A program made the translations under genes and the position numbers. DNA of 64,000 nucleotides from positions 16,025,318 to 16,089,317 of the forward strand of contig CM055097.1 in the NCBI GenBank assembly GCA_029204225.1. The letters are read 5' to 3'. Positions 16,362 to 63,522 of this stretch are shown one piece after another; positions within the stretch are counted from its first letter, which is position 1, and each line of letters begins with the position of its first letter. The DNA comes from Diphasiastrum complanatum (Eukaryota; Streptophyta; Lycopodiopsida; Lycopodiales; Lycopodiaceae). Under the pieces are notes generated by a model. That model made no database searches. It saw only the letters and a program-made list of their open reading frames with translations, and had not been told where the DNA came from.

Positions 16362-17395
16362 AAAAAAAAAACCATTTCAATCCCTAAACATTTTACTTGT
16401 ACCTTCCATTTACAGGATATTTCTTGACCTACACAATGGTTTTAGCCTGTCTGTATTTAGATGACCACAGATTTGAGTGTTAATGATGCAGCTCTACACC
16501 AAATGAATGTTATCACCCTACTTGGTAAATGATTTCTTTTCTCAACAATGTAGGTATGTTTTCACAACTTCCTCTGATGTTTATTCTGTGATTGCAGAAT
16601 TTTGAATATGCATCTTGTTAAAGAGATTTATGAGGACGAATGTCAACTATCCAATCTGGTAAAGGAAGTCATCAAGAATAGGCAGTGTTCAAATGCTTCT
16701 ACCTTGGATGAAGTTGATCACGATCCAATTCTCATCGATCGACTGTTGGATGCAAAAAGCCTTGTGTCTTCCTGTAACATTTCCACTGGACAAGTGCTAG
16801 ATAATTGCTTGACATTTCTTCTAGCAGGACATGAAACCACATCAAGTCTCCTCTCTTGGACAGTATATTTACTTTCACTAAATCAACTGTGGCAAGAACG
16901 TGCACGGGCAGAAGTGCAAGAGTTTTTCTCCTGGCATATGCATTGGAAAAACTTAACGAATCTGAAGCTTATCAATATGATACTTTTTGAATCCTTACGG
17001 CTTTTCCCGCCTCAGCCTGTCATTGGTAGGCACTGCATGAAAAAGAATCTGGTGGGTGAATATGAGGTTGATAAGGGCATGGAGATTTTGATTCCCATAG
17101 CTGCTTTACATCGGGATCAAGATTTATGGGGAGATGATGCCAACGAGTTTAGGCCTTCTAGATTTGCCAATGGCATAAATGGTGCATGTAAGGATCCTTC
17201 AGCATACCTTCCATTTGGAACAGGTCCAAGGACATGCATTGGCCAAACTCTTGCATTGACAGAAGCCAGAACAATCTTGGCTGTCATGCTCGACAACTAT
17301 GCATGGGAGCTTAGTCCAGCTTATAAACATTATCCTCATGTAACTTTAACCCTTCAACCGAAATTTGGCATGCCAATACTTATCACTAAGCTATA
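10318..17395 (+). CDS. Cytochrome P450, CYP72 clan; two exons visible, N-terminus missing
   Basis: A mono-oxygenase of the CYP72 clan, normally anchored in the ER membrane. Exon one visible here (about 10318-10579, GTAAGT donor) encodes the B'-G region, including EFLDIMVELIGKIAF and ending IPWYK. The large exon (about 16597-17395) contains the I-helix AGHETTS, K-helix ESLR, FRPSRF, haem loop FGTGPRTCIGQ and a C-terminal LTLQPKFGMPI typical of the clan. Key residues including the haem Cys are present and the 3' exon is open to its stop. The 6-kb gap holds a gypsy remnant. The usual exon after WYK (about 25-30 codons with YLPT) was not found, and no membrane-anchor exon is visible leftward. It may be a live gene with distant exons or a pseudogene. 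Confidence 0.88.
10580..12520. other. P450 intron sequence, no gene recognised
   Basis: Contains only short ORFs without recognisable domains. The sequence from about 11.9 to 12.5 kb could be the LTR of the gypsy remnant whose primer-binding site follows at 12521, but I could not place the LTR start. Confidence 0.4.
12521..12537 (+). promoter_or_regulatory. Primer-binding site (initiator-Met tRNA type)
   Basis: TGGTATCAAAGCAAGG is one base from the common plant TGGTATCAGAGC. It is preceded by TTACA, consistent with an LTR ending in CA. A gag remnant follows 2 kb downstream on the same strand. Confidence 0.6.
14302..14418 (+). repeat. Tandem duplication of about 58 bp
   Basis: The phrase GTATTGAGGGAACGGTACCC followed by ATGCCGACCTA occurs twice (from about 14312 and about 14371), with near-identical flanking bases, so it is a single local duplication. 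It lies just before the gag remnant, probably in its leader. Confidence 0.75.
14535..14920 (+). pseudogene. Ty3/gypsy gag remnant inside P450 intron
   Basis: One frame gives VVDNWLTKWTSYLSLHGIF, SSSWWQNLQPKPATWEEV and, after a TAA, SLDSYLQELMDLWTKAPS and LWYFILGLSADYQNE. These match the retrotransposon gag blocks (W, TWEE, L..ELMDL, FI.GL). At least one in-frame stop is present. No knuckle or pol was recognised downstream to 15.4 kb. Confidence 0.75.
15000..16320. other. P450 intron tail, possible LTR sequence
   Basis: Around 15728-15760 and 15940-15985 there are short local repeats (GGCAATCTAGCAGC and TCTGCCATCGCTCCA). Near 16305 AATAAAG precedes the (CT)n tract, as at the 3' part of some LTRs. 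No coding domain recognised. Confidence 0.3.
16321..16359 (+). repeat. (CT)n microsatellite
   Basis: About 19 CT units followed by an A run, 240 bp before the large P450 exon. Confidence 0.95.
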
Positions 17396-18071
17396 AATTG
17401 TAGTGAGTTATAAGGTTTATCCTGCAGCATGCTATCTGTTATTCTATCTGTTCTTCACCTTATTATGGTGGTTTCTGCTTTGATGAAAGATCTTCAAACT
17501 TTTGTGGGGAGGGGTCGTTTGTTACTTATTTGTCAGAATTGCAGCTCTAAGATACTTTTTGTAAAAATGTTGGATGCAGTTGCAACCAAGCTATAACTCT
17601 TCTGCAAATTTCGAGATAGGAAATATAATGTAACATGGAAGATTTAGCAATATAGCTGTATTTAGGCTTTATCATCAAGGATAAGTGAGTTCCTGATGGG
17701 GAAAGAAGTGAGCTAGCAGATCAAATATGGCCCTTGATGGACCTGTTCGTGAAGACTATTGACTGTAAGATACAATGTTGATCAGTAATACACTTAGCCC
17801 AAAGTTGGGTTGTGGCAATTCACCAGAGATGGGAGTTGAGGGTTATTGTCATGTAAAATGGTTATCTGGACCCCATGATCACTGTATCAAGTCGAGGCAC
17901 GACAGGGGTGGCTGCTAGTCATGGAGATCCTGCAGGGGACCTAATGCCATCAAGGGTTTTGCAACTGAAGGACGAAAGGAAGATAAAGAGCATTAGTAGC
18001 AGCCTTTTCTAGGGAGGAACTTCATTAATATCAACTCCTAGTTTGAGTTCACGAGCTTTCCAATGCCCCCC

Positions 18072-45572: not shown

Positions 45573-45807
45573 ATATCGGATCCATGCGAGCGAGCTAGAG
45601 AGAATTTTGAAGTCGTACATCCTCGTCTCATTCTGATATCGCATGTCCATACCAATATCGGATCCATGCAAGCAAGCTAGAGAGAATTCTGAAAAGTCAT
45701 ACATCCTCGCGTCATTCTGATATCTCATGTCCGTACCAATATCGGAACCACGCGAGTGAGCTAGAGAGAAACTCGAACAATTGTACATCCTCGCGTCGTT
45801 CCGATAT
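45573..45807. repeat. Three tandem 69-bp inverted-repeat cassettes, copia leader
   Basis: Period about 82-84 bp. Units 45573-45639 (67 bp), 45655-45723 (69 bp) and 45739-45807 (69 bp), each starting ATATCGG and ending CCGATAT or CTGATAT, separated by 15 bp. In the third unit the left arm ATATCGGAACCACGCGAG pairs with the right arm at 17 of 18 positions. Loops contain AGCTAGAGAGA. They lie 115 bp before the gag start codon. The same cassette form occurs in units A and B. Confidence 0.85.
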
Positions 45808-45921: not shown

Positions 45922-47041
45922 ATGGCAACTCTAAGCGAGAGTGTCCTCAATGAGTCAAGCAAATTGGAAGGAGCCGACAACTATGCAGTTTGGAAATTCA
46001 AACTAAAGAATATTTTGATGAAAAAGGAGCTATGGAAGACCGTGACAGGTGAAGAGACAAGGCCAGTGATTGAAGAAGATCAGCAACCATTTGACAGGAG
46101 AAAACAGAAAGCACAATATGTCATCAACTTATCAGTTAGAGATGCAATTATTCCTTACATTTCAGATTCAGAAGGACCAAAAGAAGCATGGGATACGTTG
46201 AAGGCATTGTTTGAGACCACAAACACATCTTGAGTGCTATTCCTGAAGACGAAGTTGCACACATTGCGGATGGATGACGATGCAAATGTTGCTGATCACC
46301 TACTAAAGATCAAAGAGATTCGTGACCAATTCACACGTGTGAGGACTTCTCAAACAATGTGAACAATCTCCTAAGATGTGTGTGATTGCACATAGATCAA
46401 TCTAGATTGAGATACAAAGATACTAGCTCAAAAATCTAAGGCAAGAGCACTTCTACATGCATCAACCATCAACGATTTATCTCACATAATGAAAGCACAC
46501 TTTCCATGAAAAAAACTAAGTATAGATTTGGCTTGCTCTCAAGTAGAGAGAGAATACAACAAAGAGCTCTCGGGTAGAGAGAGAATGTCATAAAAAATTA
46601 GAGCTTGCTACATCAAAATCTTGCTACAAAAAACTAAGTATCAATTCTCTCTCACTCCCACTCCCACTCATAGTAGCTCGAGATCCAAGAGTGTGAAAAT
46701 GAAGCAATTTTATTGGACCACTAAGATCACCACCTCTTACAATGATTGGACCTCCTACATGACACTTCTTACATTGCATCGTTGTAGGAGTGCATTTAGA
46801 ACCCGACATTACGAGAGTAACACAGCCCAAAGTCCTTCATCTGACGATAGTGTAGGATTTGCTTCGCGATCTTCCAGTGTGTCCAACCTGGGTTCGAGCA
46901 CCTTGATCACAAGGATGCCTCTGAACAAGCTCTCTACAACAACAAGGAGAAGCCAAAGAAGCAGTTCAAGCCTAAGAGGGAGTCAGATCGAAAGCATGAT
47001 CAAGATCAACAAACAAAGAGAGCCAACAAAGGCAGATAAAA
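45922..47041 (+). pseudogene. Second copia: gag, interrupted by an insertion
   Basis: Starts MATLSESVLNESSKLEGADN with YAVWKFKLKNIL and ends its first frame at 46233; LHTLRMDDDANVADHLLKIK follows past a TGA. From about 46343 to about 46850 lies foreign sequence beginning ACACGTGTGAGG. Gag-like text resumes with YNNKEKPKKQFKPKRESD up to 47041, where unit A begins. Reading resumes in the same frame at 54684 on the far side of unit A, so this is one element split by insertions. Confidence 0.85.
46343..46850. other. Insertion of unknown type in copia gag
   Basis: Separates two gag segments. It starts near ACACGTGTGAGG and contains repeated AAAAAACTAAGTAT (about 46505 and 46627) and TCTC-rich text. 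Ends and class are not resolved. Confidence 0.4.
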
Positions 47042-47076
47042 CATTAGAGAAAATATGGGCTCAAAATGGGCCCTTT
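47042..47076 (+). repeat. Unit A left terminal inverted repeat
   Basis: Starts CATTAGAG and ends TGGGCCCTTT. Pairs with 54649-54683, and shares CATTAG...CCCTTT with the ends of the 370-bp derivative and unit B. Confidence 0.85.
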
Positions 47077-47448
47077 AAGAAATTTCACTTTTGAGAGAGT
47101 TTACGTAGAGAGAGAATGCAAACCGGTAACTTCTGGTCGTCGTTTTCTGAGTTTTCGGCCTTGCCCGACGTCTAACTAGTATGGTTAACTTCAGACAATA
47201 GTCAGTTTAACATGAGATGTAATAACTTCTCTTCATGCTCGTTCCAAAATTTGGGACTAGAGCTTTAAGACTGAAAATCTTGGTGTGCTCAATGCAAAAA
47301 CTGAAGCAGGAGAGGCAAAATTTTTGAAATCACTGTATGCTTATAGTGAAATATGAGGCGGGACGATTTTTCAATGCGACATAGACATTACAAAAGTAAG
47401 GAATGCTAGATCTATTCATATTGATTTACTGTAGGTAGATTCATTTAC

Positions 47449-48559
47449 ATGATTGTAGCTTTAACAATGGCAATGTTCCATTTGCATGTTGCTCTTCCGA
47501 TGGAATGCACTCCAATTATTAAGAAAAATGCAAAAGTTGTAGAGAATGCTGCAACAATAGTTAGAGAATTGAGAATGAATAATCATATGAATATAGATTT
47601 GTGGGTGGATGGATCAATTTATCCTAATGATCTAGCTACCAATTTGTGTCCAGATTTTAAGTCCGTAACTCATCTTTTTAGATATGTATGTGAAGAAAAT
47701 AGCGGATTACTTGGATATTGTCAAAGGTTGCGTGATATTGGAATGCATAGCATATCTTGTCTGAATCAACAATTACAGGTTGCTAATCAACAATTGCAAT
47801 GTGCAAATCAACAATTGATTCATTATGTGCAACACACTAGTGCTGAAAACAATGCACTCAAGAATGCTATGTCAGAGTTGAATGCAACTGTCACTACTCT
47901 TTGAGGATCAAACCAAGAAATGTTAGAATCCATGGAAAAGTTGCGATCCGAGAGTTTAAAATCTGCTGTTGATCTAAAAGTTGTCAATAGAAGATATGAG
48001 GACTTTGCAAAATCATTGCACCACATTTGTAAAATCTGTACATGATTGTTGGGGAAAAGACAACGTTACTCATTACATGGTGCTAATCTTTATCATTATC
48101 TAGTACTTTTCTCATTCAGGCTTATATTTTTGTCTACTGATGTAACTAATCAAAATTATTGTTTGTAGCACATCCTTTCTTATCATGCAACTTAGCTTAA
48201 GTATCTGGTCATCACAAGGCATGAAAAAATCTCATTGGCAAGCAAGGGGAGCATTTCATAGAGCAACAAATCATAGAGGACACAATTCAAGAAATAAATA
48301 TTTAGTTCAACTTTTTCAGTGGTTTTACAGAAGAGCACAATTAGATATCAAGCTAAAAACTCGTCAAGTATTACGATATTTTGAAAGGCATTCAAATTCA
48401 TTACAAAAGAGAGATCCTTGTAATATATCAAAAATCTATTACAGAAAATTATTTAATTATCATCATTATCCTCTTCAAGATTCAGACGGATGGTATTGTC
48501 ATGAAGGAATAATCTCCTTTCATATGGATCCAAAAATTCTAAATTTTTCCTCTTGCTAA
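47449..48559 (+). pseudogene. Unit A transposase-like gene with internal deletion
   Basis: The N-terminal block (47449-47904) carries MNIDLWVDGSIYP, SVTHLFRYVCEENSGLLGYC and a Gln/Asn-rich coiled coil (three NQQLQ-type repeats). After a TGA a few coiled-coil residues follow, then the sequence jumps to the C-terminal end: DCWGKDNVTHYM, an intron (about 48055-48170), and SIWSSQGMKKSHWQARGAF with LVQLFQWFYRRAQ. Unit B has 1.2 kb of sequence between these blocks that is missing here. I do not recognise the family with certainty; transposase is inferred from position and from unit B. The gene ends tail to tail with the leftward gene, overlapping about 20 bp. Confidence 0.6.
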
Positions 48560-50003
48560 ATCAATGTAACCCGAATAAAGGGCCATTGCAGATGATCTTT
48601 TCGTAGTCTCATTAGGAGTATAACCCAATATCTTAATAGCCAAATCTCTCTTCACAAAAATTATTTTATATGTTCTTCTTGCGTACTTATGACCTCCTAA
48701 ACAAACTGATAATGATTTGATGGCCATAATGACAGTGGTTGCATATGGATTATAAGATGAATGATATATACAAATCTCATTATTTTGAAAGTTTTTCAAA
48801 TAATGAGATAGAGAAACATCTTTTCTCTTGGTTGATACACCTCGGATGCCTCCATGTCTCATACCAAAGGCATCTATTTCAATAGCATCCTGTAAACAAG
48901 AAAAGAAAATAAATTTATGATGATACATAACACTGCAAACTCAATAAGAAAACTGAACAATATCAATACCAATAAGAAATAAGAAAACCGAACAATATCA
49001 ATACCAATATAATATCTACTTACCAGATCATAATCATCATAATCAACGACATTTGTTCTGCTGATGTCATGTCCTCCAATGGCCTCTACATTTTCGGAGG
49101 GGATATATCTAGCCCTAGGGGGATATCTTTTTTGAAATTCCAAAAATTTCTCCTCTATAGGCAAAGTCTTTTCATGAGCTTTAGATTTTTCAATCATGGC
49201 CTCCAAGGCCTCATTGCCAGATTTCCAATTGCCATCTTTATCATAATCTATCTCACTTTCAAGGTCATCATATGAGTAATCAACAATGTCAGAAAATTTT
49301 GATAAATTTTGAGCAAAAATTGAGAGGATTTCATCCTCTCTCAAATTCAATACGTCTTCTATATCATTAAATGAAATATAACATTCATTATTTATAAAAT
49401 ATAAAGGAACATCGAGTAGAGTTAATTGATTAACAGGAGATGCAGATGAAAGAGAATCAGAGAGGATTATAGAACGAGAGAGAGTTTTTTGATAATCTGA
49501 AGCCATAGAAGCTTCAGCTTCAACCCCTATATCAGTATCTGCATCAGTCACATCAACTGGAGCAGGTGCAAATGCTTCGATCAATGGAACAATTGAAGAT
49601 TCAACAGACTCATCATCTAGAATTTCAGCAGATATGTAGAACACAAAAGCCATTCCTTTGATTAGAAGGCGACATATTCTTTTGTAGATATCACAGTATA
49701 TATTTCTTTTGAAATGGTCATGCAGGTTAGAGTACTTTCTATTGTGTTTATGCTTAGAGGATGGTTGGGAATGTACAAGGTCCTGAAAATGAACGAAACA
49801 AAAATTATCTATATCCAAAACAAGAGTACTAATAATCTGAGAAAAATTATCAAGATAAGAAATTAAATTATAACGATTCTCATAAACTGGCTTATCGATA
49901 TCGAAGGAAGCAAAAAAAACACTAGCAAAATACTCCAATGAATGTCATTGGTATTAAAAGAATCCACAAGTTTGTCATCTAAGGACATGGAGGAACTAGC
50001 CAC
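48539..50003 (-). pseudogene. Unit A leftward gene: acidic protein of unknown function, start codon lost
   Basis: Homologous to the intact 452-aa protein of unit B. The first codon aligned with the unit B Met is GTG (50003-50001), followed by ASSSMS versus ASSSGS in B. A frameshift of one or two bases near 49940-49990 leads into the long frame, which has DLVHSQPS, a DDES acidic linker, LYFINNECYISFNDIED, LREDEILSIF and SDIVDYSYDD. An intron (GTAAGT at 49023, AG at 48890) joins to DAIEIDAFGMRHGGIRG and SLSVCLGGHKYA, ending at 48539. The intron position is the same as in B. No known domain recognised. Confidence 0.65.
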
Positions 50004-50013
50004 ATTGAATCCG

Positions 50014-50201
50014 ATATCGGTTCAATGCGTCAGATAAATATCGGTAGAGGAATAAAGCAAAGTGCGCGCGCTGATCCGATATGGTAAGGCCAAGAATAAA
50101 ATTTTCTGAAGAGCACTGGTCGGAAGTGGCTAATATCGATTCATCGCGCCTGAATGAATACGAGCATGCACAACAAGGGATGGCGCACGTCGATTCGATA
50201 T
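50014..50201. repeat. Unit A cassette pair 1-2, abutting the leftward gene start
   Basis: Two 69-bp inverted-repeat cassettes, 50014-50082 (ATATCGGTTCAATGCG ... CGCGCTGATCCGATAT) and 50133-50201 (ATATCGATTCATCGCG ... CGTCGATTCGATAT), 50 bp apart. The first ends 10 bp from the presumed original start codon of the leftward gene. Confidence 0.85.
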
Positions 50202-50675: not shown

Positions 50676-50952
50676 ATATCTAATCAACGCGCCTGGTAGA
50701 CGATGTATTTGCTGCATTTGGATTGTGCGTCGAATCGCTATTCCAGGATCAAAAGATTATCAAATTTTTTGAAACTATTGGATCCTATATGCATGATCAA
50801 AGCTTGATTCGGAAGACTCTTTATACTGGCCAAAGTTATGCAAAATCTATCGAATCAAGCTCTGATCATTCATATTGCGTCCAATATTGGATGAGCGCGC
50901 GAGAATACATACTACGGTTGTCAAATGCTTTATATGCGAGTTAATTAGCTAT
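50676..50952. repeat. Unit A cassette pair 3-4, mid-intergenic, degenerate
   Basis: 50676-50741 (ATATCTAATCAACGCG ... GTGCGTCGAATCGCTAT, 66 bp) and 50884-50952 (ATATTGGATGAGCGCG ... GCGAGTTAATTAGCTAT, 69 bp). Arms are more diverged than in the other pairs. Confidence 0.6.
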
Positions 50953-51302: not shown

Positions 51303-51465
51303 ATATCGATTCAGCGCGCTCGAAAACAACTTCCTTCAATCCGTTCCTACTCGCTCTCACTGATCCGCTACTAGCTAACGGAATTGTTTAGCTCAGGTAT
51401 CGCTTCGACGCGTCCGACCTGAGGTCTGATTCTGAAATCAACATTATCGTGCGCTAATCCGCTAC
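51303..51465. repeat. Unit A cassette pair 5-6, abutting the H3 gene start
   Basis: 51303-51371 (ATATCGATTCAGCGCG ... TGATCCGCTAC) and 51397-51465 (GTATCGCTTCGACGCG ... GCGCTAATCCGCTAC), both 69 bp, 25 bp apart. The second ends 9 bp before the H3 gene ATG at 51475. Confidence 0.85.
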
Positions 51466-51474
51466 TACACAGTA

Positions 51475-53487
51475 ATGGCGTGGACCAAGCAGACAACACG
51501 AGGGCATTAAGGTGGAATATCAATTTCAGGTGCGGGTCAGGGAAATCCACAACCACCACCTCCTCCTAGGCCAAGGGGCAGAAGAAGAGACCCACCTAGG
51601 CTCAAGGATATTCGGAAGCTTCAGAAGACAAATAATCTTCTGATTCTGAAATCTCGCATACAGAGGTCCATCAGGCAGGTGACAAGAAGTCTATCTGCAG
51701 ATGTGAGATGGACGGTAATGACAATTGAGACGCTGCACACAACATATGAGGATTTTGAGGTGAAATTTTTTTCTGATACTGTTGTTGCAGCTGTCCATGC
51801 CAAGAGGGTGACCATCTTGCCCAAGGATTTCAACATTGTGTTCAGGCTTCGGGACACATATGACAAGTTTGCTGAATACCTTAGACCTGCTCCCTCCTCT
51901 CCTCCAAAACAAGATTCAGAGAGGAGAAAACGAAAGCAATCTCAACCAACCCGACTTGTTATTCATATATAGAGCGGGAGTGTTTCAAAGAAGAGGAGGT
52001 CTCTCTACCCTCCATCTAAAGCGAGGGATTTTTCCAAGCCATCTCCTCTGAATACTATTCTTTCTTCTAGGCATTCTCCTCCTAACTCTCCTTCTTCTCC
52101 TTTCACTCCAGCTTTAACTTCTCCTACTAAATCTTCCTCTCCTAACCAATCTCCACCTCCTAAATCTCCTCCTCCTCCTAAATCCGTAAATATTAGTTCC
52201 CCTCCTCCTGTTGTTGGAAGTGATTTAGATGATTTTGTTAGTGTAAAAGTAGAATCAATTTTGAATGACAATTCTTTACGTGGTTTATCAGTGTTACTTC
52301 CGTCACCCCCTGCACTTGCCTTTGTAAATAGTTCTCAATATGTACAGTATGACTAATTGTTAAACACGTATGTCCTCGATACAATTTTAGGATGCCGAAG
52401 ACCAATGATGGTCTCCCCCTTTCTAGTTTAGATACTGGTGAATTAGAAAGTAGGGTTAAAATTCTAGGGGACAATGTAGGAGGTGGGGCAATTCAGTACT
52501 GGATGGAGTTCTTCCAGACCCCATTGTTTATAGATGCTGCATTGTTTTCCCTTCAATTCATGGCTGCATTTGATTTTCCTGCTTTCAAAAGTCTGCACAA
52601 TAATATGCTCCAATACGTCAGACAGGGGACTTCAATTCTCGTGCTGCCATACATAACAAAGTAAGTTTCTATTTTTTGAATTTGATTTTATTGAATTTTT
52701 CATATGAATTTTGATTTCACATTGATTTTCATAAATTTCTTGTTTTTAGATTTCAGTGATCATTGGAGCTTATATGTGTTGTCCCTGTAACGATGAGGGT
52801 GTGTGTAATCCAGTTTGTTTGAAGATGAACTCTATTACACACACACACAAAATTGCCAGGACCCATATATAGAAAATACTGGAACTCTTTTCAGTACCAA
52901 ATGCAAAAGCATACTCGAAGCTGAAAATGGTTGATGCAGAGGTATAAATTTTTCAATATCGGTTCGACGTGCCCTTGTAGTTATTGATTGCTCTACTTTT
53001 TCAACGTGCGCGCTGATCCGATATTCAATCAAATTTTTTTGATATCGGTTCGACGCGCGCTTGTTTCCATTGTAGATTTTATTCTTACATCCTACACGTT
53101 GATCCGATATCTCATAATGTTCAAATTTGGATTCTGCAGTCCTCCCAGTAGGTTGATTCTGTCAACTGTGGTTGGTATATCGTATGCAATGCCAAACACT
53201 TTTTTAATTGGCTTGCATTACAAGATGGACTTCCAAATTTGGAAGAAATAATATTCGATTAATTACTTTTAATTGTGTTTTTGTTTTTTATATATACAAA
53301 CTCCTATTAACTGATCTTTGATTAATTACATTTAACCGTGTTTATGTTTTTTTTTTTTTTTCAGTTTAAATGCCCGAAGGTCTCCCCAATGGAGATAATG
53401 CACTTCAGACAGGAGACCATAAAGCTTCTGATCAAAAATTCATATCCAGTTGCAGTGGCCGAGTGTTCTCCACCCAAGCTACAGTAA
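51475..53487 (+). pseudogene. Unit A histone H3-like / Ulp1-like protease fusion, five exons, with stops
   Basis: One frame from 51475 gives MAWTKQTTRGH, a TAA at 51508, GG, a Pro/Arg stretch, then a gap-free H3 fold from LKDIRKLQKTNNLLI through VRWT and SDTVVAAVHAKRVTILPKDF to the end of helix 3. The start matches the H3 tail MARTKQTARKSTGG, the TAA falling on T11. The frame continues (TAG at 51970) through a Lys/Pro/Ser-rich linker to about 52340. Exon 2 is 52391-52660 and ends LVLPYITN; exon 3 starts 52757 with NDHWSLYVLSL then a frameshift; exon 4 (from 53149) has VDSVNCGWY with TAG replacing the catalytic-site Gln; exon 5 is 53365-53487. Introns match unit B. Ulp1 enzymes cut SUMO-type conjugates; the substrate here is unknown. 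Confidence 0.88.
52956..53110. repeat. Unit A cassette pair 7-8, inside intron 3 of the H3-protease gene
   Basis: 52956-53024 (ATATCGGTTCGACGTG ... GCGCTGATCCGATAT) and 53042-53110 (ATATCGGTTCGACGCG ... CACGTTGATCCGATAT), both 69 bp, 17 bp apart. The corresponding unit B intron has none and is shorter. Confidence 0.88.
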
Positions 53488-53569: not shown

Positions 53570-54234
53570 TCAGTAACTTTTTGAAATTGCTGCATCAGGA
53601 GAAATCCATTCCTCACTCGAAAAATCTGGTAGAGGATATGGCTCTAATCTACCAACTAAACCATTTTTATCAGGAAAATCGATGTGATCATAAAAAAAAA
53701 CTCCTGACTCTAAAACTGATTTTGGAGAACAACCTTTATATTGTAAAATATCAATATCCGAATGTATGACATCGATTATTCCTGCAATCGATTGAACTGA
53801 TTGCCATTCAAAGAAATTTGATGGATACAAATTTTCAAAACCAACAAAAACATCTCAAGAAAGATATAATTTAAAGAAAATGCTAAATCTAAAAAAATTG
53901 AATCTGAAAACTTACAATTGCATTTTCTTCTATCATTTGGATTCAGATCATGAATGTTGAGCCCATTGTGAAGATAAGCATGCTGAACTAAAACTTCCGT
54001 GATAGATTGACCGGTAGGTGATACGTTAAAATCCATTATCCTACCTTTCCAAGAGCTTCTATATATGTTATGTGATCTTTTTCTTTTTCGGAATGAGCCT
54101 TTTGCAAAGGGATGCATCAAGATCCATTGATATTTTCGATATATTCTTGGTATCCATTGATCTTCTGCATTTTTTTTATTGCAAATATTGATTGCATCAA
54201 TGGTTCCTCTTGGTCTCCGATTATGTGTAGCCAT
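53570..54234 (-). CDS. Unit A leftward 200-aa protein, two exons, unknown
   Basis: Exon 1 (54234-53916) starts MATHNRRPRGTIDAINICNK and contains a basic stretch FRKRKRSHN and QSITEVLVQHAYLHNGLNI. A GTAAGT donor and an AG acceptor at 53854-53855 join it to exon 2 (53853-53570), with FENLYPSNFFEWQ and PLPDFSSEEWISPDAA before the stop. Joined length is 603 nt, exactly in frame, with no stop. It ends 82 bp from the convergent H3-protease gene. No family recognised; the basic N-terminal half could bind nucleic acid. The counterpart in unit B would lie at or beyond the right edge. Confidence 0.6.
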
Positions 54235-54648
54235 TAGTCAAAAATATGAGTACGCAAGCTGAGATCGGAGAGAATGTAGAGATTGCGAGGTAAACCTAAG
54301 AATGACAAGAAAATGAGAGATAGAATGAAGAAAATGAGAGATATACCTATGAATGACAAGAAGTTCCTTAACTACAAGGATTAGTTAATCACAGTTTATG
54401 ACTATTGACGTCAAATCAACCTCGAGTGAACAATGACGAGCAACATAAGAGTATTCGGGTAGTAACTGTGTTCCAATCACAATTGTTTGTTCTGCCTGGC
54501 GGAATATTTAAAAATCATGAAAATTTGGCTGGGAAAGTTAAATACAATTTCCGTCCATCAACCACTGTTACATTTCATCACAGATGGACACCATTCATTG
54601 GGATACATAAGCGTTGAAAGCGTGCAAAGTCAAAAACAACATCTTGAC

Positions 54649-54683
54649 AAAGGGCCCATTTTGAGTTCTAATATCCCCTAATG
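54649..54683 (-). repeat. Unit A right terminal inverted repeat
   Basis: On the minus strand it starts CATTAGGGGATATT and contains CTCAAAATGGGCCCTTT, identical to the inner half of the left repeat. Confidence 0.85.
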
Positions 54684-55764: not shown

Positions 55765-56134
55765 CATTAGAGGAGTTCTAAATCCAAAAAAGACCCTTTG
55801 TGAAGATTTTTTTTTTCTCAAATTTTTCTTACACATGGAGCAATCAAAACACTCAAATTTGAAATCCACGTAACGTAACTTTTGAGTCCACATTTGGATT
55901 CCATACTAAAAATGGCATAACTTTCTAGTGGTAAGTCCGAATTTAGCAAAGTTTAGTGCATTGGAAAGCGCTCAACAAGGGCTTTCCAATAATCTGTTAC
56001 ATGACATACTTTTGAGCTACGATTAAAAAGTTATGGCAAGTCAAAAGTATTAGTGTTATATTATTTTAATAATAAAAAAGACATCTTGCACAAATTCTTA
56101 AAAGGTCTTTTTGGAACTCAAAACTCCTCTAATG
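55765..56134. mobile_element. 370-bp non-autonomous (MITE-like) member of the CATTAGAGGAG TIR family
   Basis: Ends CATTAGAGGAGTTCT on the left and, reversed, CATTAGAGGAGTTTT on the right, continuing as AAAAAGACC(C/T)TTT on both sides, so the repeats are about 35 bp. The interior is AT-rich and non-coding. It interrupts the copia RT at ...QHT / SYKRLIGSLMY; the reading frame is intact across the joined flanks, so no target-site duplication is visible. Confidence 0.88.
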
Positions 56135-56170: not shown

Positions 56171-56205
56171 GCAGACAACACATTAGAGGAGTTCTCAATA
56201 TCAAA
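56171..56205 (+). repeat. Unit B left terminal inverted repeat
   Basis: The first 15 bases are identical to those of the 370-bp derivative, followed by the shared AAAAAGACCCTTT. Confidence 0.82.
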
Positions 56206-56752
56206 AAGACCCTTTAAGGAATGCCATGTAGGATATAGAAAAATATCAAAATAAAAAAAACAATATTGTTTATTTGCTTGCCCCACCACTCCCGAGGCCT
56301 CCCCAACTCCCAATGATCTAACCACAGTGTCTATAGTCACAATTAAGAACTATTAACAGTTTGCAGTATAACTTGACTAAATTCAAAAATATTCCCTCCA
56401 TTGGTTAGAAAAAGGGCAATATTTTCACTAAATCTAAAAAATGACCACCATCCCCAAATTCGAATCAGAAAAAATTGCAAAATGTTTACATATGCATTCC
56501 TTCCATGAGAATGGAAATATGGGTGCCATCTCCAATTATGAACGCCATCATCACTTTGGAATGGAAATATGAGCGCCAACTACGTATTGCAATGAAAAAA
56601 TGAGTGGCATTTTCAAATTTGAATCAAGCATACAAGCATGGAGATTGGATTGATCGTACATAGTATATAACATAATCGAAGATGAGTATTTTGTTTTGCT
56701 TCATAGAATCTGGTCATAGTACTTTGATGCAACTGATTACTCTATTAGTTTT
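56206..56752. other. Unit B left subterminal region
   Basis: Non-coding. A short direct repeat AATGGAAATATG(G/A)G(T/C)GCCA occurs at about 56510 and 56560, possibly a subterminal binding site. Confidence 0.4.
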
Positions 56753-58980
56753 TTGATGATGACATTGTATCATCTACATGTGGATATCCCTATTGATTTG
56801 GCACCTTTGCAGAGAAGAGGAGGCAAAGGAATTCAAATATCTACTGAGGATCGTTCTCGTTACAGGGCAGAAGGAAAAGAAAAACTTGGATTTGTGGATA
56901 GATGGAACATATCCACAAGATCCAAGCACTTTCACACATCCCACATTCTCTTCAATAACTCATTTCGTTATATGGATATGCAATGGGCATAGTGGATTAC
57001 TAGGATATTGTGAAAGATTGCAGAACCATGGAAAACAACTTTATATGAATAAAGTTTACTTTTTAGAACGTGAGTTAATTCGGATATTCTCTTATTGTCA
57101 GAATAGAGATTGTCATCTCCAAAAGACGTTAGAAGAAAATGAACAAGCTAAAAAAAATAATGAATCATTATAGAAGATAACAATTAATATCAAATCAGAA
57201 CTAGAGCAAATGCAATCAGTCTTACAGTCTATTCGTATTGAGAACTTACAATTATTGAAGGATGTGGATTTGACAAAGAAGAAGGCTGAAAGTAAGAAGC
57301 GAAAGCGACAAAGTTGCAAGGATATTCAAATGCTTTCAAAAGGAGGTTATCGAAATAGAAGGATCCGTGCATTCAAGTAAGCATATTCTGATTTTTGTAA
57401 GGCTTTCAATGACATTTGGATTTAATTTCATCTATGGTGATATTCTGTTAACTATCTATTTTTTTTGCAAATCTGCATTAGTAGCTCCTCGGAATATTAA
57501 AGACAATGCTTCACTAGGAATGTCATTGGGCACAATATTGACTTACAAGTCCACTGAGCGTATCATGATGAACAATAGGATTTCAAATGTAAAGTGTAAA
57601 ATAGCAGAGTCTTTGATGGTGGACATTCAAATTTTTTTAGATAAGATTATAGTTCATGGTGCTTGTGATTTTGCAGGTATTAGCAGGGAAGCATATTGAA
57701 TAATATTTAAACTAATTAGAGAAGCTTTTAAGCAAGTTCAAATTAGAAAAGTCCCAATCCCTAGGAAATATCACTTGAAGAAAGAGAGAGATACATTAAA
57801 CATAGGTATGCATAAGATCACTGGAACTCCATTTCATATTGGAGAGGTGTATGAAACTAATGGAAGATCGATATTCTATAATTCATCAAACAATCTATTT
57901 GTTGATCTAAATTACTTGCTAAGATACATCGTCACATTCTATGATATAACCTATGAAAAGGTGAATGACAAAATAATCATAGTACTTAAGCTAGATGAGT
58001 CAAAAATTGTGAAAGGGCAGAAGATGGAGAGGGTTAGTATAACTCTCATGATTGGTGCTCTATCACAAACAGAGAACCAAGAAGATTTCAGATTCAGTGT
58101 CCAGTCTAGCCTATCCCCTTGAAAAATGTGCATGTTTGCACTCTTCATGCAAAAGTTACATTAATAGAAAAGATCATTTATCTTCATATAGTTTTTGCTT
58201 GGAATACTAATCCAACATCATTAGCAAAGGAAGCTATCTCTCGATCAAAAGATGTTTTATCAAAAGCAGGATTCCATAAAGGACATGTCAAAATTCAAAA
58301 GATGAAAAGCTTTCAAGAAAGAATGGGAACATGCCAACTAAGCCGAGCATAAGAGGAGCAAAAGCACGTCGTTTCCTATCAAATCATACTGGTAAGGGTT
58401 CTAATATTCAACACTAAGTCTGGACAAATATTATTGCTGCCACTCAGGACTTCGAGAAAGACGGAAAAACTAGAGTAAAAGTTGATGTATGAAAAAAGCT
58501 TGATAGTATGATTGCTATTTTAAGAAAAGAAAAATACTCTGATATTGATAAGAAAGCTGTCCAAAGGACTTGTATCGAGTTTGTTAATGCGATATCAAAA
58601 GCATGGGGAGAAGATCACATCATTCATTACATGGTTAGTATAAAATTTTCAAAATGCTTTCAATTTTTCATATATATTTAGATCCAAACATAAGACTAAC
58701 ATTATGATTTTGACATATGCAGCACATACTAAGAGATATACAACATTTTTTGCAAATACATATGGAAGCTTGAGTGTATGGTCATTACAAGGGATGGAGA
58801 AGTCACATTGGCAAGCACGAGCAGCATTTCACATGGAGGAACCAATGAAAAACAAAACTACATTTGTCAATTGTTTCAGTGGTTCTACCGCAGAGTTCAG
58901 ATTCGACATATAACAAAGTCCACACAATACAACAAGTTTAGAAAAGCATGCAAGTTCATACAAGAAGAGAAAGTTAGATG
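56753..58980 (+). pseudogene. Unit B transposase-like gene, decayed but with more of the core
   Basis: N-terminal block as in unit A (YHLHVDIPID, then KNLDLWIDGTYPQD, HSGLLGYCERL) with a frameshift near 56880, a coiled coil, an intron (about 57380-57477), then GISREAY, FKLIREAFKQV, KKERDTLN, PFHIGEVYETNGRSIFYN and IIIVLKLDESKIVKGQKMER. The D-E in LKLDES could be the first catalytic Asp of an RNase H-fold transposase. The core after DFRFSVQS is lost or scrambled. The C-terminal end has FVNAISKAWGEDHIIHYM, an intron, SVWSLQGMEKSHWQARAAFH and QLFQWFYRRVQ. Family not certain. Confidence 0.6.
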
Positions 58981-59115: not shown

Positions 59116-60583
59116 CTATTCATCATCAGATCTTGTGTCAGATTCTATGGCAGTATTGTCATGAAGAAATTCTTTGCTAGCGTATGCATCTAATAGATGT
59201 GCATTATCCTTATTTCCACTAAGCTCAATATAAGTGGAATACAACGAATAATGGGAGCTCCTTAAAGGAACATTCCCATCAGTAAAACCTAAAATGTTCA
59301 GAACATAAGATCTTTTGACAAAAATGATCTTATTTGTCTTAACAAATTTATGTCCTCCTAGGTAAAATGATAAAGCCTTAACTGTCATTATAAGACTCTC
59401 CCCAACTGGGCTCAACTTGGAATGAGCAATACAGATCTCATTCTTCAGGAAATGCCTAAGATAGTGGCCAAGTCCACTATCCCTCTGGAACGAGGATGCG
59501 TGTTGTTTGAGACCACCTCGTCTCGTAGCAAAATCATCAATTATGAGAGCATCCTACAATAGGAAATATGTTAGCAAAACCACATTCAGTGATTAAAAAC
59601 ATTCTAATACAAGGAAGTTTAAACACTTACACATTCATCATCATCGGCAGCAACCAGATTAGGATGATCAATATAATGACCACGTATTGCAGTGGAATCA
59701 TCAGTGAAATGCATTAATGATGGACGAGGGAAGCCCATCTGGGATTGAAATGCCGTGAATTCTTCATCGGATGGTCTGCCTCGCCCATCCTCAACTATAT
59801 TTGATAAAGTCTTAGTCAGGCATTCTTCACCGGTCATAAGTTCCTCCTCATCGTCAAAATCAATACTAGCAACAAAGTCATCTGTTTCAAAATCTACAAA
59901 GTCGGAGAATTCAAAAATTGTGTCGAATAATAAACATAAAACCTCGTCTTCACGATAGTAAAAAAAACTACATAAATCAGCAGTAGTAAAATATACATTG
60001 TCATTAATATAATATACAAGCAAATTGAAAAGACGTTTAGACTCCTCTATAGGGTTGGATTCATCAGCAGATGTATTTTGGCCAATAAAAGAATCTCGGA
60101 GAACATCAGTATTTACATCAATAAAGTCACTTTCCTTATCAAGAGTGTCAATAAGAAAGTGACTAATATCCTTAATAGCTGACTGAACAGAGGATGATGC
60201 AAAAGGAGGGTCAGCAACAGAAACTTCCTCATCATCTGAGATCTGAACTAACAGAAAAAGTACGAAACCACTCTGATATTCAACCAATCGACATTTCTTG
60301 TTGCAAGAAGGACACATTGAACTGCTTTTGAAAAGATCAAACAATTTGGTGAACATTCTATCCAGTCTATGTCTGAAAGTTGGGAAGAAATGAACAAGAT
60401 CAGTATAATGCATGTACTGGAGTGAACCTATGGAGAAAACAAGCTTACTAAGTATATATCTGAATCTAACATAATGTTCATAAAATACGTCAAAATTTGG
60501 TTGTACAGATTTTCAGTAATCCCAAATTCAGTAAAAAATGAACTCAAGCCTGAATCTCGTGAGGATCCTGAGGAAGAGGCCAT
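59116..60583 (-). CDS. Unit B leftward gene: intact 452-aa acidic protein, unknown function
   Basis: Three exons join in frame with no stop: 60583-60449 (45 codons, MASSSGSSRDSGLSS), 60416-59631 (262 codons) and 59553-59116 (145 codons plus TAG), with GTAAG donors and AG acceptors. Exon 2 has DLVHFFPTF, a Cys cluster CPSCNKKC, an acidic Ser-rich linker, VYFTTADLCSFFYYREDEVL and SDFVDFETDDF. Exon 3 has DALIIDDFATRRGG and ALSFYLGGHKFV. Unit A has the same intron before DAI/DALIID. Conserved blocks in both copies (YFxxxDxxxxxxxREDE, SDxVD, GGHK) show constraint. It is divergent from the H3-protease gene and preceded by a cassette pair. No known domain recognised. Confidence 0.75.
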
Positions 60584-60596
60584 GGAAGTAACGTAG

Positions 60597-60757
60597 ATAT
60601 CGCACTTGTGCGCGAGGGAGAACTGAAACAAAACTAATTCTCAAGATCACGCACAAGAGGGATATGTACGGCAGGTAGATCCCGAATATCGCACTTGTGT
60701 GCAAGTAGGTATAGCTGCATACAAACGGACAACAATGCCCGCGCACAAGAGCGATAT
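60597..60757. repeat. Unit B cassette pair, abutting the leftward gene start
   Basis: 60597-60665 (ATATCGCACTTGTGCGCG ... CACGCACAAGAGGGATAT, 69 bp) and 60686-60757 (ATATCGCACTTGTGTGC ... GCGCACAAGAGCGATAT, 72 bp), 20 bp apart. Arms pair at about 15 of 17-18 positions. The first lies 13 bp upstream of the leftward ATG. The arm sequence differs from unit A, the architecture is the same. Confidence 0.88.
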
Positions 60758-60769
60758 GCCGTCAATTTT

Positions 60770-61600
60770 GATAACAAAAAAGGTAAAAAATTAATCGGGT
60801 TTCGTGCCATTTATACTATTTTTTCACACGTGTGTGGTCAACGGTCAAAAGACACGTGTATACTTTCAAGTGGACTATAGGCACTGGCACGTGTTGTGAA
60901 AGATTTTAGATCCTTAAGATCCAATCTACTTGAATGATCTTTGGTTAGAAAGAGAAATACACTACCAATCTCACCAATGTAGAAAAATCAGCATCTACAC
61001 ACAAATTGAGATGAAAACATCAATAGAACTTGATCAACTTGAATGAAATGATTATGTACTGTTGCTTTCCGTACAAAACCAGCAAGCTATTGTATTTCAC
61101 ACGTGTGGATCCAAAAATAACAAATATAGATCATTCTACACATAGAATTGCAAGCAATCACCAAGATAGTGCACCAATGGATAGTAGAACCCAAGAGAGC
61201 CATGTATAAGCATGAAATGAAATAGAGAAGAAAGAAGATCACTCTCTCCATGAGTTACATCCTTTAATAGTAGGTCCAAACCCTATTTGGCCACTTGGCT
61301 TTCCCACCAAAATGCTAACCCTACTAATTTTGGGTCTAGATTCAATGTACCCAACTATTCAAATTGAATCTACTCAAACTCGCATTCTAACTTACTAATG
61401 AACTTTGAAAAAATCAACCTCTAAATCTAAAACAAGTTTTTGGCCTCGATATGTCAAATATGAAAATATTGCAAAATGTGATGAAACTAGTTGAATCTTT
61501 CACACATGTGAGGTGACACTGAGCACGTGTGAGGTGACACCTAGACACGTGTCTCGTGTTCATTCGTCGGATCGACAACACATTTCACTCTCGCAATGGC
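60770..61600. other. Intergenic sequence between divergent unit B genes, possible insertion
   Basis: No ORF. CACGTGT-type motifs recur (about 60832, 60855, 61101, 61523, 61546), as does GTGAGGTGACAC (twice near 61510-61530). The CACACGTGTG core also occurs at 46343 and in the palindrome at 42412, so an unrelated repeat may have inserted here. Confidence 0.4.
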
Positions 61601-61602
61601 CC

Positions 61603-61763
61603 GTATTGCACTTGTGTGTCTTTCTTCTAAACTAAGCGCTCTCTCTTATACTCGGCTCGCACAGGTCCGATATACCGTACACTCTGTCCGTACATGTCGG
61701 TCCTCTGTGAGGTCTTTATCATCCTTCCCTGATCTTCCTAGCCGTCACGCACAAGTTTGCTAT
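61603..61763. repeat. Unit B cassette pair, abutting the H3 gene start
   Basis: About 61603-61673 (GTATTGCACTTGTGTG ... TCGCACAGGTCCGATAT) and 61694-61763 (ATGTCGGTCCTCTGTG ... CACGCACAAGTTTGCTAT), about 70 bp each, 20 bp apart. The second ends 16 bp before the H3 gene ATG at 61780. Confidence 0.75.
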
Positions 61764-61779
61764 CCCATAGTACACATCC

Positions 61780-63522
61780 ATGGATAGGAGAAAGCAGACA
61801 AGGAGGGACTTCTTCTCTGTTGGCTCGTCCTCAGCTCCTGCGGTTGCCATTACACCTCCCACTAGACCTAGAACGAGCAACCGTAGCAGGTGGCTCTCTG
61901 AGATACGCAAGTATCAGAGATCAACCGCTTTGTTGATTCCAAGAGCTCCATTCTACCGTGCTGTCCGAAACATAACAAGAAATGATCTTGGACGGTTGGT
62001 TAGATTCACACCCAATGCTCTTCAGTGCCTTCAGGAGGCTGCTAAAGATTACATGAGCCTTTTTTTGAAGATTCTTTTTTGCTTGCAATCCATTCCAAGA
62101 GAGTCACCATAATACCCAAGGATTTTCAACTCATGATGAAAATGAGGGATAGGTTTTGCAGGTTACACGTATCTCAGCCTGCTACTCCCAGACCAACTCC
62201 TCTAGATAGGACTGATGTTCCTACGAAGCGTCCTAGGAAGCAGACAGCCCCCAAGAGAGCTCCGAAGAAAGTAAGGAGGGTAGACACCACAGATTCTGTA
62301 AAACCTAACCCGGAATCAATTGTAGATAATGCTGCTGTTGATAATGTTGTAAATATAGCTACATCTATTTTGGATACCCCTTTAATTCCTGTAGATACTA
62401 CACATCCACTTCCTCCTCCTCCTCCAAATTTTTATACATATATAGATTTGGATGATTATCTTAAATTGAGAAAGACATATCTGATGCTATAGATATAATT
62501 GTCCTTTTTGTTTTAGACTAGATGAACTTGATTTTAGTATAAATTATAGAGTTCTTGATTGTTTGGATCTCAAAGACAGACGCTTTTCTATCAGTGGTCC
62601 TGTGATAGAGTCCGGGCTTACACTCTTGCAATATGACATTGCAAGAGATTCATCCAATGAGTTGCTGGTGCTGAGTAACTTTTTGCTTCGGGCCTTCAAG
62701 GAGAATAATGACACATTGTCATAGTGTCTGACTAGTGGATTCACACAAGCAACAAAGTATCTGCTAATCCCTTATCATACCAAGTAAGATATATGAAATG
62801 CTTCTTGCTGTATAATGCTTTAACATTGGCATTTTCAATGGAAATAGTTCTCAGAATTGCAGCTAAAGAAATTTCAATCTTATTTTGCAGTGACCACTGG
62901 AGTTTAAACCTGATCTCTATTAATAGATTTGTAGATAATAGTATTAAAGGTTTTTGTGTCAAGATAAATTTGGCGAGCAATACGCATAAGGATGTAGACA
63001 TATACCTTCCTTATTTAAGTAAATATATTCCTACAGATGTTCCCCATTCCGTGGACTGGCAGATCATCAGTTTGGAGGTAAATTCTGTCTTCTTAATAGC
63101 ATTTTGAAATCAGTATTCTAATGTATTTGTTTCATTCTGATTCATTCTGTTTCATAATTGATTTTTTGTGTGCTGAATTTTACTGCAATCACCCCAGCAA
63201 AATGATTCATTCAGCTGTGGGTGGTACACATTATACTTATTTTTTAAGTGGTTTAGCCTTCAGGAAGATGTTGATATTTCTAAGGTAGTAAATTCTGTTT
63301 ATTTTTATTTTTGAAATCATGATTAGTTTTTTATTTTGTTGATGTTTTCAGCCATTACTAATACATGAATATTCTATCTTGCAGTTTACACTTCCTGAGT
63401 ACACATCAAGCCAGATGTACAGACTTAGACAAGAAATTATCCTAAGTATACTGGCTAGAGCAAGGTTTCAGCCTCTCGTTATTGATGATGGTGCAAAGGA
63501 TGATGTAGTTATACTAAATTAA
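61780..63522 (+). pseudogene. Unit B histone H3-like / Ulp1-like protease fusion, two lesions
   Basis: Starts [12 protein letters not shown], keeping K4-Q5-T6-x-R8 of the H3 tail, then [39 protein letters not shown] and, after two extra bases in a T7 run (62060-62066), [21 protein letters not shown] basic tail (KRPRKQTAPKRAPKK) and Pro-rich linker follow. The exon 1/2 junction is not resolved. Exon 2 (62517-62783, one TAG at 62722) ends YLLIPYHT; exon 3 (62891-63077) starts NDHWSLNLISI and has FVDNS; exon 4 (63198-63284) QNDSFSCGWYTLY; exon 5 (63385-63522) ends at TAA. His, Gln and Cys of the C48 site are present, Gln six residues before Cys as in Ulp1. Apart from two lesions it is complete. 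Confidence 0.9.

Follow-up and report, generated by a model that had tools for sequence, protein, structure and literature searches.

A predicted gene joining a histone H3 variant to a Ulp1/SENP-type protease in two disabled copies of a probable DNA transposon of Diphasiastrum complanatum

Organization of the locus

The window analysed here, a stretch of 64,000 nucleotides of Diphasiastrum complanatum, carries the same predicted gene twice, composed of a histone H3-like part followed by a Ulp1-like part and referred to below as H3-Ulp1: copy A at 51475-53487 and copy B at 61780-63522. Only the latter appeared in the earlier note on this DNA; the gene of copy A was found by the listing of open frames, in which a second H3-like ORF is located at 51511-51969. 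Frame-against-frame comparison within the window revealed three corresponding genes in A (about 47.4-53.5 kb) and B (about 56.8-63.5 kb), with a common order and orientation: gene 1 on the forward strand, a divergent gene on the reverse strand and H3-Ulp1 on the forward strand. Apart from the exons of H3-Ulp1, the features of this region are as follows:

47042-47076, forward strand: candidate terminal inverted repeat at the left end of A, its 35 nt being 80% complementary to 54649-54683
47425-48560, forward strand: remnant of gene 1 of A, most of its middle gone
48542-49988, reverse strand: divergent gene of A, counterpart of 59119-60583 in B, candidate ATG at 49988-49986
54649-54683, reverse strand: candidate terminal inverted repeat at the right end of A
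55765-56134: MITE-like insertion of ~370 bp, whose ends are the same type of terminal inverted repeat as in A and B
56181-56218, forward strand: candidate left terminal inverted repeat of B, whose right end would fall beyond the window
56763-58978, forward strand: gene 1 of B, a transposase-like remnant with a coiled-coil-like stretch and LKLDE, CTLH and GMEKSHW blocks, its middle missing
59119-60583, reverse strand: divergent gene of B, read in three pieces in different frames, separated by introns or breaks, candidate ATG at 60583-60581

Both copies are pseudogenes. In B, the H3-Ulp1 gene shifts frame inside the H3 fold, at seven consecutive T residues (62060-62066), contains a TAG codon at 62722-62724 and is missing the donor of intron 1; these defects together define it as a pseudogene. 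A and B are likely two diverged, disabled members of one DNA transposon. An ordinary H3 gene that merely stands beside a transposon can be ruled out, as two diverged copies occupy the same place of the same element. By eye, no clear target-site duplication was seen beside A or the MITE-like insertion.

To the left of A, a copia gag begins at 45922 (Pfam, 1.3e-11), and to its right lie a zinc-knuckle-like stretch, without a Pfam match, and farther on a reverse-transcriptase-like stretch. Both right-hand stretches were identified by visual inspection alone, and we therefore regard it as no more than likely that A, the MITE-like piece and B are nested within one copia. Visual inspection places the MITE-like insertion itself within a copia reading frame (MQHT / SYKRLIGSLMY). 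An additional ORF (53776-54237, reverse strand, 153 aa) is located at the right end of A; it matched no Pfam family and might be the element's fourth gene. Elsewhere in the window, amid many retroelement frames, part of a host-like cytochrome P450 gene was recognised at 16578-17396 on the forward strand (Pfam, 2.3e-51).

Exon structure of the H3-Ulp1 gene

The predicted exons of the two copies, all on the forward strand, are as follows:

61780-62489: B exon 1, H3-like tail, histone fold and Pro/basic linker, frame break at 62060-62066
62517-62783: B exon 2, Ulp1-like part, with the in-frame TAG at 62722-62724 and a donor GTAAGA at its end
62891-63077: B exon 3, His of HW at 62895-62897 and candidate Asp at 62934-62936
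63198-63284: B exon 4, Gln at 63198-63200 and Cys of CGW at 63216-63218
63385-63522: B exon 5, running to the stop codon
51475-52346: A exon 1, H3-like tail, histone fold (ORF 51511-51969) and Pro/Ser linker, two in-frame stops
52391-52660: A exon 2, Ulp1-like part, opening with an in-frame ATG and continuing the frame of exon 1 across a phase-2 intron
52757-52941: A exon 3 (NDHWSL), frame broken inside
53140-53250: A exon 4 (SSQ*VDSVNCGW), donor not found and end approximate
53365-53487: A exon 5, running to the stop codon

Copy A can be read in one frame, with two stops, from the H3 part through a Pro/Ser-rich linker and a DLDD stretch, and then across a GT-AG phase-2 intron into exon 2 and on to YITNDHWSL. 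The DLDD stretch of exon 1 is common to both copies. In B, the acceptor of intron 1 together with the donors and acceptors of introns 2-4 yields YHTNDHWSL and QNDSFSCGW. The acceptors of introns 1-4 correspond between A and B; splice donors were not found for intron 1 in B and for intron 4 in A. Judged from this exon arrangement, the H3 and protease parts were likely fused in one spliced protein, and the suggestion made in the earlier note, that a mobile element here combines H3-like and Ulp1/SENP-like parts in one predicted gene, is supported by the two diverged copies with their corresponding introns. A search with the joined B protein found no intact H3-Ulp1 fusion among 6,612 candidates; only two H3 fusions, both of other build, were among them. 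None of the 41 histone-domain proteins among 3,907 candidates was listed with a protease domain.

The H3-like domain

Exon 1 of copy B matched the Pfam Histone family (PF00125, cutoff 26.4 bits) at 4.1e-14 (53.3 bits) before the frame break and at 2e-5 (25.3 bits, just below the cutoff) after it. When the break was bridged by X, the match reached 8.9e-24 (84.5 bits), and the ORF 51511-51969 of copy A gave 1.5e-18 (67.7 bits), both above the cutoff, which rules out a chance match. In a search of the PDB with the B domain the best 60 of 176 matches were all histones, H3 by name in all but one. The structure model of the A domain (pLDDT 80.1, 31 aligned rows) predicts a histone fold, and its best 50 PDB matches listed were chains of nucleosome structures (best E 3.3e-8). 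The H3-like nature of exon 1, proposed earlier from B, is thus borne out, and the expectation of at most one extra residue in loop 1 relative to H3 proved accurate, B having exactly one and A none. In the plant CENH3 rows used for comparison, loop 1 exceeds that of H3 by one or two residues.

The start of the A domain, MAWTKQTTRGH followed by a stop, lies in the same frame as ORF 51511-51969 and is recognisable as the beginning of an H3 tail; the tails of A and B both open with MxxxKQTxR. The canonical H3 tail carries K4, K9, K14 and K27. Of this set only K4 is retained in A and B, and it is the sole lysine ahead of the fold, over 37 positions in B and 41 in A (one of them a stop). The position of K9 is occupied by Asp in B and by Gly in A. 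By its predicted sequence, the H3 part of both copies is therefore an H3 variant and not canonical H3. As read off the alignment by H3 numbering, the His, Arg and Asp of the H3-H3 contact, as well as several arginines that contact DNA, appear to be kept in both copies.

Within the H3 fold, A and B are only 37% identical. Identity to H3.1 is 49-51% for B and 38-39% for A, and identity to plant CENH3 is 48-52% and 32-40%, respectively. In a tree of 41 rows A groups with B (93/79), a grouping that may be false given the very long branches, and the placement of the pair is left open. With near-equal identities to H3.1 and CENH3 and this open placement, the identification of the H3 part as a CenH3 gene is not supported.

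In the two parts of the H3 domain the four-fold sites differ between A and B in 7 of 10 and 5 of 7 cases, so the copies probably split long ago. Differences in the H3 core by codon position were 45/28/48 in a DNA alignment (p=0.066). A protein-guided alignment of the H3 parts gave 64/42/78 over 125 codons, a count biased towards conservation because of the way in which the alignment was guided. Given this bias and the DNA-level p value, the evidence of selection on the H3 part is modest.

The predicted protease part

Copy B contains the blocks IPYHT-NDHWSL, FVDNS and Q-x5-C-G-W that the earlier note had listed, and GT donors and AG acceptors are present at introns 2-4. In B, His, Asp, Gln and Cys follow one another in the order of the Ulp1/SENP active site: the His codon starts at 62895, that of the candidate Asp, 13 residues later, at 62934, and those of Gln and Cys at 63198 and 63216, respectively. 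In copy A, the interval between His and Gln is disrupted.

Comparison of B with Pfam Peptidase_C48 (cutoff 20.7 bits) gave 21.5 bits for a join with one extra Gln and 16.6 bits for the canonical splice, and copy A alone gave no Pfam match to this family. Of the two domains named in the earlier note, the histone domain thus scores above its cutoff in both copies, whereas the C48 domain does so only for B, and only in the join with the extra Gln. When a two-row profile of A and B was searched against the PDB (E up to 10), six sequences were retrieved, of which five were SENP2 or SENP5 (E 0.016-0.05) and the sixth was a thiol peroxidase (E 1); SENP2 aligns to the profile through P-x(5)-HWSL. The B protease alone gave weak ubiquitin matches only. 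Taken from these motifs and matches, the downstream part of the gene is likely a remnant of a Ulp1/SENP-type protease.

Gene 1 and the divergent gene

Among 7,994 scored candidates, the sole relative of gene 1 of B was P0003, an unbroken protein of 727 aa (E 5.8e-79, 42 member sequences). By eye, LKLDE, ADLKTL and CTLH blocks can be made out in P0003, to which gene 1 of B adds GMEKSHW in a later piece. This pattern of blocks suggests that gene 1 may encode a DDE transposase. In Pfam, gene 1 of B remained without a match (E up to 5), and P0003 without one that exceeded its cutoff (E up to 10). A PDB search with P0003 returned one match (E 0.16), and its predicted structure was useless (pLDDT 32.7). 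Scans of viral and genome contigs with P0003 found no relatives.

The divergent genes of A and B share 47% amino acid identity over 116 aa of their C-terminal part and 28% over 287 aa. The codon-position differences in the C-terminal part are 36/40/63 (DNA alignment, p=0.012), a clearer sign of protein-level constraint than that seen in the H3 core. The divergent gene of B gave no Pfam match, and no relatives of the C-terminal part were found in a scan of viral sequences.

Paired ATATCG modules

Both elements contain inverted pairs of an ATATCG-type motif. The scan for such pairs (span 40-120 bp, at least 11 of 17 arm matches, core chosen after the data had been seen) returned 16 pairs, of which 11 span 66-72 bp, seven of them exactly 69 bp. 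In 30 Markov sequences the number of pairs with a 66-72 bp span was 0.23 on average and 2 at most. One of the 11 pairs, at 56909-56979, is probably due to chance; it was dropped and four weaker pairs were added, to give a final set of 14 modules, nine of exactly 69 bp and the others of 66-72 bp. Eleven of the 14 are located in the two elements:

50014-50082 (A1) and 50133-50201 (A2): adjoining the candidate ATG of the A reverse-strand gene
50676-50741 (A3): 66 bp, in the middle of the divergent promoter of A
51303-51371 (A4) and 51397-51465 (A5): directly ahead of the H3 ATG of A
52956-53110 (A6 and A7): within intron 3 of the H3-Ulp1 gene of A
60597-60665 (B1) and 60686-60757 (B2): adjoining the candidate ATG of the B reverse-strand gene
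61603-61673 (B3) and 61694-61763 (B4): directly ahead of the H3 ATG of B

In both copies, 10-26 bp separate the end of a module from the H3 ATG or from the candidate ATG of the reverse-strand gene. The remaining three of the 14 are found in the copia leader (45573-45807), where three tandem 82-84-bp repeats each contain one inverted ATATCG pair of 67-69 bp.

The consensus of the arms is ATATCGGTTCAACGCGC in A (14 arms), ATATCGCACTTGTGCGC in B (7 of 8 arms) and ATATCGGAACCACGCGA in the copia leader (6 arms). The copia modules are of a type close to those of A, while the module core of B, CACTTGTGCGC, is unlike the cores of both A and copia. As the modules are common to copia, a host factor may be their reader. 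RNA hairpins are a less likely reason for their presence, because the eighth arm base differs (T versus A) in all seven A modules and these bases would not pair.

The divergent promoter of B (60820-61520) additionally contains CACACGTGTG-type palindromes at 60822, 61095 and 61498, and a similar one lies near 46330; the palindrome stretch is perhaps a separate small insertion.

Comparison with known systems

VANC, a protein of the Arabidopsis VANDAL transposons, binds to short motifs that recur in noncoding DNA of the element, including its introns, and removes silencing marks; both the motifs and the VANC proteins diverge between VANDAL families (PMC5735166, PMC10398659). Some VANC genes also bear a Ulp1 domain (PMC13317346). 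The elements described here resemble VANDAL in having three genes, in carrying short repeated motifs in noncoding DNA, introns included, and in the change of motif type between related elements; we treat the 14 modules, 11 of them in A and B, as a working likeness only. Unlike in VANDAL, the N-terminal part of the H3-Ulp1 protein is a predicted histone H3 fold, and the sites are inverted pairs, mostly of 69 bp. By analogy, the layout may be called VANDAL-like, without a detectable relation of the parts beyond Ulp1.

Kaonashi/KIU, which are MULEs with Ulp1-bearing VANC-type genes, are likewise three-gene elements in which one gene contains a Ulp1-like domain (PMC13317346). Here, in contrast, the partner of Ulp1 is H3-like and the other genes are without a Pfam match. 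The element frames scanned gave no match to the MULE transposase, DUF1985 or DUF287 domains, and membership in Kaonashi or the MULEs was rejected on the lack of the MULE transposase and DUF1985 in these frames.

Selfish elements with a core histone of their own are represented by Marseillevirus, Medusavirus and Clandestinovirus. Viral histones were matched in a viral structure library (best E 8.6e-5), but identity was at most 26% among the best 20 matches listed, and these were by name single histones or histone doublets, none being named a protease fusion or a transposon protein. CenH3/CENP-A is likewise a divergent H3, which shares some residues with B, but the tail start of our copies is of the H3 type and loop 1 of A is of H3 length. 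P0002 also joins an H3 fold to other sequence. In this protein of 600 aa the fold is C-terminal, behind a long acidic/Pro-rich region; it differs from H3-Ulp1 in that its H3 is nearly canonical (128 bits) and no protease domain was matched.

A search of the open-licence literature found no transposon-encoded H3 among the matches listed, and this may be the first known case of a core histone encoded by a transposon.

Possible role of the H3-protease protein and alternative explanations

Based on our observations, we suggest, tentatively and with somewhat less than even confidence, that the predicted H3-protease protein acted as the element's own anti-silencing factor. Its H3 part would pair with host H4 and enter, or dock on, the chromatin of the element, where the factor would replace or shadow H3. 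As the predicted tail keeps K4 and has no lysine at position 9 or beyond, the H3 part would be free of methylation at K9 and K27. The protease joined to it would strip SUMO from nearby silencing factors. The ATATCG modules that lie between the divergent genes, as well as those in the protease intron, would serve as docking sites confining the effect to the element, a role modelled on the target motifs of VANC in the Arabidopsis VANDAL elements, and the product of the divergent reverse-strand gene would be the first candidate for their reader. The idea of countering silencing had been raised in the earlier note and is strengthened by the paired modules and by the fact that both tails have lost K9.

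The removal of marks by VANC-type proteins is not fully understood, and a histone variant devoid of K9 and K27, linked to a SUMO protease, would, if the suggestion is true, provide a direct physical means. It would also offer a system for testing how far silencing runs through K9 and K27 of an element's own nucleosomes. An (H3-H4)2 tetrasome wraps about 69 bp of DNA. In a bolder version of our suggestion, which we consider unlikely, the transposon would build its own chromatin, laying a SUMO-protease-linked H3 variant, markable at K4 and not at K9/K27, at the paired 69-bp sites, so that its nucleosomes escape silencing.

A quite conceivable alternative, to which we give slightly less credence than to the anti-silencing role itself and which is compatible with any reading of the protein, is that the modules are host transcription-factor sites common to several mobile elements and unrelated to the H3-protease protein. 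The three copia modules, close in type to those of A, fit this explanation, whereas the different core of B, CACTTGTGCGC, gives the impression that recognition changed together with the element.

It is unlikely, in our opinion, that an H3 gene of the host and a Ulp1 gene were picked up as mere passengers (transduplication) that play no part in transposition. Plant transposons are documented to take up host genes, Ulp1 included (PMC13317346). Such a capture would also agree with the broken state of both copies and with the DNA-level codon test of the H3 core, which was not significant. On the other hand, despite 37% identity of the fold and the many differing four-fold sites, A and B have both retained the start of the H3 tail, the fold, the positions of the linker and of the introns, and the protease motifs, and the protein-guided differences by codon position (64/42/78) also argue against mere passengers.

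That the two parts formed separate proteins, either as an H3-like gene with a downstream protease gene or through cutting of the linker by the protease, which would free the H3 part, seems rather unlikely. The closing of B exon 1 by a stop, with no evident intron-1 donor, points in this direction, and the in-frame ATG opening A exon 2 would allow a separate protease start there; but A reads from the linker into the protease through a GT-AG phase-2 intron, exon 2 of B has no in-frame Met, and the order of the H3 and protease parts is the same in both copies.

Finally, we find it distinctly improbable that the H3 part served as a CenH3-like module, guiding the element, or the protein that it encodes, to the chromatin of centromeres as a safe insertion site where the protease would act. 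Copy A has no extra loop-1 residue, the identities to H3.1 and plant CENH3 are about equal, the long-branched tree leaves the placement open, and the tails match H3 (KQTxR) and not the start of plant CENH3. What speaks for such a module comes from copy B, which has one extra residue in loop 1 and has LIPRAPF, R-F-T-x-x-A-L and KDF in common with plant CENH3 sequences, and whose nearest row, P0007 (56%), has a CENH3-like loop.
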